Position numbers and translations under genes: made by a program. The notes under the pieces were generated by a model, which made no database searches, was not told the origin of the DNA, and was given only the letters and a program-made list of their open reading frames with translations. Shown in pieces: positions 18,064-40,898 of a stretch of DNA of 41,094 nt. This DNA comes from a bacterium (GTDB lineage Bacteria > Hydrothermota > DG-26 > JAUXAN01). The stretch lies in NCBI GenBank assembly GCA_030619885.1, contig JAUXAN010000021.1:1-41094 (forward strand). Reading direction: 5' to 3'. The first letter of the stretch is position 1; the number at the start of each line of letters is the position of its first letter.

Positions 18064-19442
18064 GGGCTTCTCCGTATTTTGTCCAACTTTGCCCTGTTCT
18101 TTGACATTTTATTTATTGGATGTCTTTTGAGTTCATGATACATTCCCTGCTAAGGGAGGTGTATCATGCCAGAACAATTTAAAATTAAAATACTTAGACG
18201 TCGTGTTCCTAAAACTTGTGTCTGTCCAATTTGTGGAGTTAAACAGCCATTTAAAAGTGCGGGTCCATACGGATCCGTAGGGACAAGTATTGGAAAACGG
18301 TTAAAGACATTGATCTTGATAGATCGGTTCTACTCAAAGTTCAAATTATTAGAGCAAAATGTTTAAATCCAAATTGTGCTGCCAAAAAATTCTCTTTGTC
18401 AACACCAGAAATTGAAAAATACGCTCGTTCAACAAATAGACTCAAGAAAGAAGATTGAAACGATTTCTTAACACTTCAAGAAGTAAGTCGAGTATTTATC
18501 GATGGAAACAAAAAGAAGCAAATAAATATAACACCAAAGATATTATTGCCAGGTTAGAGTTTTCAGGTGTCCTTTCACTCGATGAGTATATGCCAACAAG
18601 ATCGCACAGATATCATTTAATTGCCGGAGATGCTATTAAGAGACGGATTCTCTATATTGAGCCAGTTTCCGAATTTTATGGACGAGGCTACATCGAAGAT
18701 TTCCTTTGTCGTGTAAAGGAATTAGGGATAGAACCATGGGCGATTATTTTTGATCTCCTATCAGCTTTTCCTAATCAGGCTAAGAGAGTATGGCCGAATA
18801 TCGTAATACAATTTGATTATTTTCATGTAATGCAGTGGATACACAAATATTTCAAGAATGCTCTCATTCAGTTTCGGCGTTCTTTTGCCAGCAAAGATGG
18901 AGAATTATATCGGTAGGAACTTTGGGAACATAAATGGAAAATTTTGAAAGATATGGATAAATGGACCAAAGAAGATCATTTGATAATCTCCGAATTGATT
19001 GAGATTTATGCTGGGACTGTTGTAGAAAAGGTTCTGATTTTCAAACAGCAATTGTGGAATATTTTTGACAATTTAAAGTTAAAAGAAGGAGCGTATGTTA
19101 AGAGAAATACACTTGCCGAAGAAGTATGGTGGAGGAATTCTTATCACCTTCGCAAAGTCATGAAATTCTTAATGAGTTCAAAGTTCAAATACATGATTAC
19201 TTATTTAGAAGATCCAAGAGTTCCTCGCTCAAGTAATTCCGAAAATTTAAACAGTGTATGGAGGCAAATTGAATCGGCAAGGTTTGGATTCAAAACAGAT
19301 CGCGGTAGGTTAGATCATCTAAAACTCTATCAAATTGGAAGATATTTAGATGGCAAATTCCCTTAAAACACGAAAAAATGCGGGAACTCTTTGGTTTACG
19401 ATAACTTAACCCAATTTTTTGGACAAAATACGGAGAAGCGTC
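18064..19442 (+). mobile_element. ISL3-family-like insertion sequence, decayed
   Basis: About 1379 bp. A 21-bp inverted repeat (GCTTCTCCGTATTTTG...) is perfect at 18066-18086 and 19419-19439. The 8 bases AAAAATCA repeat directly outside both ends (18056-18063 and 19444-19451), matching the 8-bp target duplication of ISL3 elements. The single transposase gene inside is broken. Confidence 0.85.
18166..19366 (+). pseudogene. ISL3-type transposase, frameshifted and interrupted
   Basis: Three reading frames must be joined. Frame one (18166 to about 18275) has the zinc-binding CVCPICG. A second frame (about 18279-18456) carries KCLNPNCAAKKF and EKYARSTNRLKKE. A third (about 18458-19366) carries the DDE region with SLDEY, IIFDLLSAF and FDYFHVMQWI, and SNSENLNSVWRQIE. 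A TAG at 18914-18916 interrupts the third frame. With two shifts and one stop it cannot make transposase unless supplied in trans. GGGAGGTG precedes ATG 18166. Confidence 0.88.
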
Positions 19443-20624: not shown

Positions 20625-20646
20625 ATTGACCTCCTTTTATCTAATT

Positions 20647-20740
20647 AAATTTTGAAATTCATCTTATTTAGATTGAACTAAAATGCAAACTTCTTGTCAA
20701 GCAAAATGCGAGATTGATGAAAACTCAAGTCTTATGTCAA
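20647..20740. repeat. About 95-bp direct repeat, copy 1
   Basis: AAATTTTGAAATTCATC ... CTTCTTGTCAAGCAAAATGC ... CTCAAGTCTTATGTCAA. A second copy lies at 22002-22098 in the same orientation with a few differences. The two bracket the lysine-exporter genes. Confidence 0.85.
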
Positions 20741-21993: not shown

Positions 21994-22001
21994 TTCAATT
22001 C

Positions 22002-22098
22002 AAATTTTGAAATTCATCCTATTTACAAAAAGTGTAGCAAATACAAACTTCTTGTCAAGCAAAATGCGAGATTGCTGAAAACTCAAGTCTTATGTCAA
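22002..22098. repeat. About 95-bp direct repeat, copy 2
   Basis: Same orientation as 20647-20740, sharing AAATTTTGAAATTCATC, AAACTTCTTGTCAAGC, AAAATGCGAGATTG and AAAACTCAAGTCTTATGTCAA. Confidence 0.85.
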
Positions 22099-38593: not shown

Positions 38594-39316
38594 ATGAACG
38601 AAATAATTAAAAAGAAAGAAGATGCTATAAAGAAATTCAAGGAAATGGTTCTTGAGAGTGAGTTCAAAGAGAGCATAGCCAAAATTGTTCTTTTTGGAAG
38701 TGTTCTCAAGAAAGATGCACACGAGGATAGTGATATAGACCTTCTCATTCTATCTACTGATGGAAGAAAGAAAATAGAAAACTTCTTATCGGATATTTCG
38801 TGGAATATCTGGTGGAAAACAGGAGAACGTATTGAATCTCTGATTTTTCCTTTGAGTGAGATTCGGTATCCCAGTTCTTGGGTTGTTTACAGAGCCCTTA
38901 AGATAGGCAAGGAGGTATATTCAATGAAAGAAGAAGAGATTAAGAGGAAGGAACAGAACGAATATTCTCAACTCTCAAGACATTACTTAGGGGGTGCAAG
39001 TAGAAATTTACGAGAGGGTGATTATAGACTTGCGGTAGACTCAGCATATAACGCATCTGAACTTGCAGTTAAAGGGCTTCTGCTCTTTAAACTCGACGAC
39101 CTTCCATCAAGCCACGGGGGTATTGTGAACAGATTCGGTGCCTTATTTGTGAAAACAGGAGAAATTAAATCAGAACTGGGTAGAAGACTCAATTCAGGAT
39201 TAGAGAGAAGAAACCGTGCGAGATATGTATTTGGTGCAGATATTACAAAAGAACATGCGGATGAGTCAATAGATCTTGCAGAAACGCTACTTAACATATT
39301 GGAATCAAAACTTTAA
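38594..39316 (+). CDS. Fused nucleotidyltransferase (MNT)-HEPN protein
   Basis: 240 residues joining two domains normally encoded as a toxin-antitoxin pair. The N-terminal MNT-type nucleotidyltransferase (about 1-110) has Gly35-Ser36 and Asp47/Asp49 (SDIDLLIL); the usual third acidic residue appears as Glu81 in RIESLIF. The C-terminal HEPN domain (about 120-240) has AVDSAYNASELAVKGLL and SSHGGIVNRFG and ends with RNRARYVF, without the RX4-6H RNase motif. In split systems the MNT protein AMPylates the HEPN toxin. Here the fusion might be self-modifying or a non-toxic relative. It has its own promoter. Confidence 0.85.
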   Translation: MNEIIKKKEDAIKKFKEMVLESEFKESIAKIVLFGSVLKKDAHEDSDIDLLILSTDGRKKIENFLSDISWNIWWKTGERIESLIFPLSEIRYPSSWVVYRALKIGKEVYSMKEEEIKRKEQNEYSQLSRHYLGGASRNLREGDYRLAVDSAYNASELAVKGLLLFKLDDLPSSHGGIVNRFGALFVKTGEIKSELGRRLNSGLERRNRARYVFGADITKEHADESIDLAETLLNILESKL

Positions 39317-39423: not shown

Positions 39424-39454
39424 AATTAGGACGCAGATTTCCGCAGATTTATGG

Positions 39455-39566
39455 GATTTGGAAATTGGGATTTACTTTGGATTTTGAATTTTGTAATATT
39501 GGGATTTAAAAATGTAGGCTCTATCCCCATATTTTTCATTAAAGTAGCCTGTCCCCTTTTTTACTC
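39455..39566. repeat. About 110-bp direct repeat, copy 1
   Basis: GATTTGGAAATTGGGATTTA ... TAGGCTCTATCCCCATATTT ... AAGTAGCCTGTCCCCTTTTTT. The second copy at 40687-40827 has about 29 extra bases with an ACACC-GAA-GGTGT hairpin. An ATCTGCG-type repeat (GACGCAGATTTCCGCAGATT, from 39430) precedes it. The reverse transcriptase remnant ends at its edge. Confidence 0.85.
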
Positions 39567-40222
39567 AGATTCCAGAAAGTTCATTGCATATTTCGGCCAC
39601 TAAATAGTCGTGAGAAATCGAATCATAGAAAGAGGTGATGTCAGTTCTTAAAAGAACATCATATTTCTCTACACATCCACGTTGCCATTCACAAAAATTT
39701 GGCCATGAGTTTTTGGCAAAATCTTCCAAAAGTGAAATTTTTGATTGTTCGCCCTTTGCCTTGCGATTAGCAAAACAATTTGGTGATAGGTCATTGTCCA
39801 ATAAGTCAGCAAGAATAATGACGAAGGCATATCTAATGATAAGATCTTTGAATGGAATGTAGACCATTCTTCGATAACATAAATCAGTTTTTGGAGGATA
39901 ATATGCATATGCAGGTCTTTGGGTGTAGCTATCGACGTCCTCCAATTCTATTAATATTTCATCCAGAATTTTTTCTTTGTTTTTCGAGACATACTCAATC
40001 TCAAAGTAGTCGTAATAATAGTCATGTTTTATTCTGTCGTAAAGAGCATAGTCAAATGCTCGATTTAGAATTTTCCTGCTATGAAGTCGGTTGAGCAATC
40101 TTGTATGGTCCAAGGTTGAAACCTCCTTGTTTGTAATTCCGAGATGGTGATTTTTGTTTCTACGCACATAACACAAGTTTATCTGTAGTAATAAAATTAC
40201 GATTACTACTTTGTTTAACCAT
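39565..40222 (-). pseudogene. Reverse transcriptase remnant, truncated and frameshifted
   Basis: Reads as the N-terminal part of an RT of the Abi/DRT (defence-associated, UG) kind or a close relative: YYPPKTDLCYRRMVYIPFKD, NCFANRKAKGE, LLRTDITSFYDSISHDYL (the first catalytic Asp). The frame stops five codons or so later, before the YxDD motif, where the 110-bp repeat begins, so it cannot polymerise. At the 5' end a good GGAGGA site and ATG at 40222 open only 20 codons; the frame must shift near 40161 to reach RRNKNHHLGI. A second start (TTG 40113 with GGAGGT 7 bases upstream) is in the main frame. Confidence 0.75.
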
Positions 40223-40241
40223 ATAATCCTCCATTTTTATT

Positions 40242-40343
40242 AAAATGGGGACAGCGACAACTCTTGCTATCCTTGACATAGTAAATTAATCTTATCATAC
40301 AAGTTTTATCTTGTCAATAAAAAATAGTCGCTGTCCCCATTTT
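40242..40343. mobile_element. 102-bp inverted-repeat element (MITE-like)
   Basis: Perfect 17-bp ends: AAAATGGGGACAGCGAC (40242-40258) and its reverse complement (40327-40343), around an AT-rich core with no ORF. It carries an outward promoter facing the RT remnant. The ends resemble in style, but not sequence, those at 40500-40654. Confidence 0.8.
40289..40317 (-). promoter_or_regulatory. Promoter inside the 102-bp element, reading into the RT remnant
   Basis: On the minus strand: TTGACA at 40317-40312, 17 bases, TAAGAT at 40294-40289. Transcription would begin near 40282 and reach the GGAGGA-ATG at 40222. Confidence 0.6.
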
Positions 40344-40359
40344 TCACCAAAATATGATC

Positions 40360-40499
40360 TTAATCTTTTGATTCCAATTTCAATTTATCTTTGGTTATTT
40401 CAAATCCAGATATTTTGTCTTCCATTTCTTTTAATATTCCTTCCATCACTATAGAAGACAGAACATACTCAAAGGGAGGAGAAAAAAGACGGAATAAAT
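40360..40499 (-). pseudogene. Possible C-terminal fragment of an unknown protein
   Basis: The minus strand is open from the edge of the 155-bp element to TAA at 40360-40362 and reads PPFEYVLSSIVMEGILKEME then DKISGFEITKDKLKLESKD. It is sandwiched between two inverted-repeat elements. No family recognised. Perhaps the tail of a gene cut off by the element at 40500. Confidence 0.3.
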
Positions 40500-40654
40500 G
40501 GGGACGGTTCTCTTTTTTTCTTGAAAGGACTCTTCTATGGATCCGATAAATTCATAGATGAGATGGAGAGAAAATATGGAGTCAAGAGATTCCATACCAA
40601 ACGAGGCATACCCAAAAAGATATGAAAAGGCAAACCAAAAAGAGAACCGTCCCC
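40500..40654 (+). mobile_element. 155-bp element with REP-associated transposase tail
   Basis: Perfect 18-bp ends GGGGACGGTTCTCTTTTT (40500-40517) and the reverse complement (40637-40654). The inside, up to TGA 40623-40625, reads GLFYGSDKFIDEMERKYGVK followed by a basic RFHTKRGIPKKI tail, like the C-terminus of REP-associated (Y1/RAYT) transposases. The catalytic HUH part is gone. A single arm of the same end lies at 22260-22278. Confidence 0.7.
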
Positions 40655-40686
40655 TATTTTCGTTTATTCACCCCCTGTATTGTTGA

Positions 40687-40827
40687 GATTTGGAAATTGG
40701 GATTTAATTTGGATTTTGGATTTGGTAATATTGGGATTTTGAAATTACACCGAAGGTGTTGGGGTTTCTCAAATATAGGCTCTATCCCCATATTTTTCAT
40801 TAAAGTAGCCTGTCCCCTTTTTTACTC
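40687..40827. repeat. About 110-bp direct repeat, copy 2
   Basis: Same orientation as 39455-39566, with a 29-base insertion. It is followed by a tandem GTCCCCTTTTTTACTCTG unit (40812-40829 and 40831-40848). The stretch 40849-40898 shows nothing further. Confidence 0.85.
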
Positions 40828-40898
40828 TGTGTCCCCTTTTTTACTCTGGGGGGCATTTTTTGCTTGACACAGAGCCTTTAATATGTGTTAGGCGAAGT

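Follow-up and report, generated by a model that had tools for sequence, protein, structure and literature searches.

The systems described so far that come closest to the locus reported here are the RAYT/REP elements and the UG34 class of DRT reverse transcriptases. In RAYT/REP systems, an open reading frame (ORF) for a tyrosine transposase is flanked by two inverted repeat copies, and REPs are usually present in more than 100 copies per genome, as stated in passages of PMC2817692. Excerpts of PMC2817692 and PMC3116915 on RAYT/REPIN and IS200/IS605 mini-elements describe two features that are shared here: a Y1_Tnp gene with short inverted flanks and internally deleted, non-autonomous copies scattered over the genome.

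A keyword search for UG34 or RT_UG34 gave nothing relevant, a term search did not find UG34 in the main text of PMC8934634, and a keyword search for DRT with pseudogene, transposon or truncated found no paper.

The window, i.e., the whole stretch of 41,094 nucleotides that was analyzed, contains an accretion of IS200/RAYT-like elements that encloses a defence-gene remnant (Table 1). The enclosed fragment shares the N-terminus and motif A with UG34 but lacks the motifs after A, the YxDD and the C-terminal part. Most probably, it is what is left of a dead UG34-type defence-associated reverse transcriptase (RT) gene that was cut by a repeat-linked deletion among accreted elements.

Table 1. Positions in the window of the RT fragment, the flanking repeats and the elements between them.
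Feature	Position	Strand	Evidence
Direct repeat copy 1, 112 nt, abutting the broken end of the RT	39455-39566	+	108/112 identity with copy 2; parts dispersed
AGTAGCCTGTCCCC terminus motif in copy 1	39543-39556	+	Genome motif search
UG34-class DRT reverse transcriptase, N-terminal third, 182 aa	39565-40113	-	PADLOC RT_UG34 profile, start site, motif A
Element Y, 102-bp palindromic mini-element with GGGGACAGCGAC ends	40242-40343	.	Fold, genomic copies
X, open frame of ~42 codons, upstream of the RT	40363-40490	-	Frame inspection
Element Z, 172 bp, internally deleted Y1-transposase element	40491-40662	+	Genomic copies, parent-like element
Direct repeat copy 2, 141 nt, with 29-bp extra stretch	40687-40827	+	Pairwise alignment, blastn
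AGTAGCCTGTCCCC terminus motif in copy 2	40804-40817	+	Genome motif search

The RT fragment and its broken end

In a PADLOC profile scan, RT_UG34 matched the ORF at 39565-40176 (minus strand) with an E value of 8.8e-74 (247 bits), covering residues 23-201 of 203 and profile positions 2-178 of 512 (177 positions). The runner-up class was UG21 (E 1.1e-18, 65 bits). Since the class profile scores above those of the other UG classes, the fragment can be assigned to UG34 as far as sequence goes, and the suggestion of the first-pass annotation that the family is defence-associated and Abi/DRT-like is borne out by this HMM comparison of UG/Abi classes. Scanning of the same ORF against Pfam gave zero matches, while PHROGs returned one reverse transcriptase family (E 4.8e-10). 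The PF00078 profile did not match anywhere in the own genome despite the presence of the RT fragment, indicating that the general RT model of Pfam misses this fragment. Among solved structures, no relative of the fragment was found (best E 0.87, unrelated).

The sequence AAGGAGG lies 8 nt upstream of a TTG at 40113 (minus strand). Because this TTG also coincides with the first profile positions, the RT start is to be moved from 40176 to 40113, and the product is likely 182 aa long. When aligned with full-length UG RTs, the final conserved block of the fragment is motif A, RTDITSFYDSI. The frame ends 24 residues past the motif-A aspartate; homology stops there, and YxDD (catalytic motif C), and with it a complete RT palm, is absent. 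The stop codon (39565-39567) spans the junction with the repeat, of which copy 1 ends at 39566, and this overlap with the repeat edge indicates that the stop was created by the joint. It had been claimed from the first reading that the RT is broken before YxDD exactly at the repeat, and both the profile end and the position of the stop agree with this.

The frame runs for 182 codons without an internal stop, its start and ribosome site are intact, and its GC content at codon positions 1, 2 and 3 (0.43/0.30/0.33) is coding-like. As all these features have been kept, either the break is recent or the fragment has been retained. The RNA leader at 40100-40290 (minus strand) folds slightly better than shuffled sequences (z -2.1; 5/200). 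No known RNA family was found near the RT; RNA family matches in the window number three, one 16S rRNA and two tRNAs, all located elsewhere.

Full-length relatives and the missing part

Multiple collections were searched for an intact relative, the existence of which had been proposed by the first-pass annotation. With the RT fragment as the tblastn query, no plasmid or phage record matched at an E value of 1e-5. At an E value of 10, 4454 plasmid and 8 phage records matched, every best place being below 60% identity and the best E value among the matches listed being 2e-4. The matches listed (30 of the 4454 for plasmids) consist of group II intron, retron, CRISPR and plain RT genes and unannotated places. 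Pattern scans of viral_contigs gave 9 stretches for the fragment protein, 9 for a 74-aa part of the RT and 105 for the RT alignment, and those of genome_contigs gave 92 (fragment protein) and 102 (RT alignment), with 0 confirmed in all cases; such scans are weak for UG34, of which a single fragment is known here, and do not by themselves establish absence. The RT alignment drew on the UG21 RT of genome G009 and 3 of the 174 plasmid records matched by this RT (40 of the 174 listed).

Within the own phylum, 2 of 60 whole genomes matched at an E value of 1e-3 and 2 of 147 at 1e-20, the latter being the own genome and G009. Over all whole genomes searched at an E value of 1e-30, 2 of 390 matched. 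In the phylum of G166, one of nine genomes matched, and in that of G250 none of one, a single genome that cannot show absence. Both whole-genome matches outside the own genome, in G009 (623 aa, 28% identity to the fragment) and G166 (622 aa, 27% identity over 203 columns), are UG21 RTs, and the three plasmid RTs aligned with the fragment are 524-566 aa long with 20-22% identity. An intact UG34 relative was thus found neither in plasmids, phages, viral_contigs and genome_contigs nor in the 390 whole genomes, within the limits of the pattern scans. All five aligned full-length RTs, two UG21 and three plasmid, run on through YxDD. A naturally short RT is rejected for this reason, as none of these relatives ends at the break.

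The own genome assembly comprises 2,455,971 bases in 86 contigs and is rated 97% complete. The RT_UG34 profile matches it at one place only, the window fragment, and with this profile the 86 contigs yielded neither the C-terminal two thirds nor a second UG34 piece. At the genome level, the match extends over profile positions 2-190 through one TGA; the 12 positions beyond the protein scan lie in repeat sequence past the stop and are taken as a chance extension. An assembly artefact, in which the RT is intact in the chromosome and the assembly jumped between repeat copies at the junction, would fit a joint that coincides with the edge of a multi-copy sequence and an assembly in 86 contigs. This explanation is unlikely, as the missing two thirds were found nowhere in an assembly rated 97% complete and the two copies, which differ by the 29-bp indel and four bases, were resolved as distinct sequences.

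Dispersed repeats and mini-elements around the fragment

Direct repeats of about 110 bp had been reported at this locus, and they are real: copies 1 and 2 are identical at 108 of 112 aligned bases and differ further by one 29-bp indel, and blastn aligns them with 98% identity over 57 nt and 93% over 56 nt. When 39440-39580 was used as the query against the own genome, 40 of 63 candidates were scored, all 40 at E <= 0.001. Of these matches, 29 cover the first element only (query 5-73), three reach query 95-96, six cover the last element only (query 85-122) and two are the window copies. The complete order of parts was observed at no place other than the two window copies; these repeats are composites of genome-dispersed sequences and not private brackets.

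One of the parts has a link to a transposase element. The AGTAGCCTGTCCCC motif occurs at 11 genomic places with at most one mismatch, eight of them exact, and the reversed-pattern control gave 0. Two of the 11 places are on contig C67, in inverted orientation and 728 bp apart from outer end to outer end, and enclose a gene for a 220-aa Y1_Tnp transposase. As AGTAGCCTGTCCCC is the inverted terminus of this element, the sequence adjoining the RT is of the transposase-element terminus type. The Y1_Tnp profile gave 14 matches in the own genome, 13 of which are above the cut-off.

Of the Y1_Tnp places, the two inspected at this level of detail, the parent elements on C67 (728 bp) and C37 (760 bp), have the inverted flanks characteristic of RAYTs; this result concerns the parents and not the window copies. 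The stretches around the AGTAGCCTGTCCCC copies, 39508-39575 and 40763-40840, show no folding advantage over shuffled sequences (z 0.09 and -0.12), so the window copies are not palindromic in the manner of REPs, whereas element Y does fold. With 11 places instead of the more than 100 given as usual in the relevant passages of PMC2817692, AGTAGCCTGTCCCC is not abundant either, and the 40 scored matches (of 63) for the composite parts also fall short of REP abundance. For lack of both a palindrome and abundance, AGTAGCCTGTCCCC is not filed as a strict REP as the term is used in those passages of PMC2817692.

From copy 2 towards the RT, the order is element Z, frame X and element Y. Copies of element Z with 98% identity are present on contigs C7 and C36, and a more diverged partial copy is found on C47. 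Its parent-like element on C37 is 760 bp long and carries a 219-aa Y1_Tnp gene, of which element Z retains the C-terminal codons in addition to both ends of the element. With inverted ends kept, the gene mostly lost and several copies present, element Z is a MITE. Frame X is either the C-terminal-like end of a gene cut by element Z or a chance frame. It has no Pfam match, and no convincing relative was found among 380 genomes, two of which matched at E <= 0.01: the own genome and one 37% match with two stops (E 0.006).

Element Y folds far better than shuffled sequences (z -7.0) and has five further copies in the genome (67-111 nt, 88-93% identity), one of which, on C66, has a Y1_Tnp match at a distance of 16 bp. 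It contains a promoter-like TTGACA-17-TAAGAT on the minus strand, from 40317 to 40289, aimed at the RT and agreeing with 10 of 12 consensus letters. The region holds 10 promoter-like sites against 5.5 +/- 2.1 in shuffled sequences, and because it is already rich in such sites, the one in element Y is a lead only. Upstream of the RT start, a 20-aa frame begins at an ATG at 40222 (minus strand) behind GGAGG, and a 24-aa stretch from the ATG preceding 40222 (minus strand) has no Pfam match.

The site in element Y might drive expression of the 182-aa N-terminal domain as a retained short protein with a new role, for which the open frame, the ribosome site and the orientation of the 10/12 site would be suitable. 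This is very improbable: only one such sequence exists, no relative of 182-aa length was found, the stop was made by the repeat joint, and the two promoter hexamers recur in just two of the five other element Y copies (L047 and L048) and are absent from L049, L050 and L051.

The first-pass annotation attributed the loss of the remainder to recombination between the two visible copies. Such crossing-over is ruled out by logic, since the RT fragment lies between the copies and would have been deleted, leaving one copy. The break is better ascribed to the accretion of elements and to a deletion in which another repeat copy took part, because the repeat parts are dispersed and one of them is a transposase-element terminus. 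An intact minus-strand RT gene of about 500 codons would once have been located between the cell-division and HEPN/MNT genes and the next gene, possibly as the second gene in a short operon. The RT gap would have gathered non-autonomous Y1-transposase elements of the IS200/RAYT-like type, along with other intergenic repeats that are dispersed in the genome. The last two thirds, including YxDD, may then have been lost to a deletion that had one of its ends at a repeat copy (an element terminus) within the RT or next to it, and the joint would have left the stop codon at the new end. What remains would encode at most a 182-aa piece with one catalytic aspartate, which should not polymerise DNA. 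We infer this order of events, as the searches turned up neither an intact allele nor an empty site.

Other repeat-bracketed genes and neighbouring genes

To place the RT bracket in its genomic background, repeat pairs were counted in the window and 20 stretches of 20 kb, together 441,094 bases. Pairs were of at least 45 nt and at least 85% identity with starts spaced 1-4 kb apart, adjoining pieces were counted as one, and the count excludes a tandem array in L103 as well as an L101 pair 203 nt apart. Six direct pairs and one inverted pair were found in this sample, which leans to repeat-bearing contigs as the contigs came from repeat and transposase search matches. The direct pairs are at the RT locus, the LysO genes of the window, two places in L093 (the second pair 3.9 kb apart), the PilZ gene copies of L088 and the leader repeats of L101. 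It is therefore not unusual in this genome for genes to lie between direct repeats, so the bracket around the RT carries less weight.

The LysO repeats of the window, 20643-20740 and 21997-22098, are 87% identical over 102 nt with a spacing of 1354. Between them sits a split lysine exporter LysO (PF03956; 20986-21588 and 21593-21862, minus strand). In L093 (16377-18204), 70-nt direct repeats enclose a response-regulator/PAS gene and a 101-aa HATPase-domain ORF that appears to be left over from a histidine kinase. A 25-nt CAGAGCCTTTAATATGTGTTAGGCG is present at 16719 of L093, just past the 3' end of the response-regulator gene, and the same 25-nt CAGAGCCTTTAATATGTGTTAGGCG at 40870 of the window, just past the 3' end of the open frame at the window end.

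These blocks bear on another origin of the locus, in which the RT was never whole here and an incoming piece of a defence operon, bordered by the same dispersed repeat families, recombined into a resident repeat, so that a repeat remained on either side. At one repeat, the end of the RT is missing, as is the start of a possible upstream gene X on the opposite side; similar bracketed blocks are formed by the window LysO genes and by the HATPase-domain ORF with the response regulator in L093, and direct pairs outnumber inverted ones by six to one in the 441,094 bases. However, X may be a chance frame, six to one is a small count of which the PilZ gene copies and leader repeats make up two, and neither a donor nor an empty site is known. 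This origin, too, is considered unlikely. Loss of the remainder from a gene that was probably once intact here, with loss of its activity, by a repeat-linked deletion remains the preferred reading.

It is doubtful that the dispersed transposase-linked intergenic repeats of this lineage serve as sites of recombination at which accessory gene blocks are taken up, bracketed and then eroded from their repeat-proximal ends. If this were true, direct-repeat-bracketed gene fragments, such as those of the defence RT, the two-component operon and the transporter, would be a standing by-product of gene turnover. The locus illustrates how a defence gene can end among mini-transposons accreted in an intergenic gap, and with it a trace of UG34 is added to a phylum in which the class was otherwise not found among 147 genomes (E 1e-20). 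Beyond these points, it most likely represents ordinary gene decay.

Elsewhere in the window, at 18455-18916, a partial ISL3-type transposase domain is present (PF01610, E 8.1e-6, profile 2-106 of 240), which is probably a fragment. In the gap after ftsZ, at 38594-39316, a single-chain nucleotidyltransferase and HEPN protein (PF01909, PF05168) is encoded convergently with the RT fragment. Part of this protein is also matched by two candidate models of PADLOC, PDC-S09 (E 3.6e-10) and PDC-M05A (E 1.8e-6). In G166, a full-length UG21 RT lies beside apparently separate nucleotidyltransferase and HepT-like genes (L072, 754-3418), as judged by eye. The RT is beside an apparently separate pair in G166, and the RT fragment of the window is beside a fused nucleotidyltransferase-HEPN.
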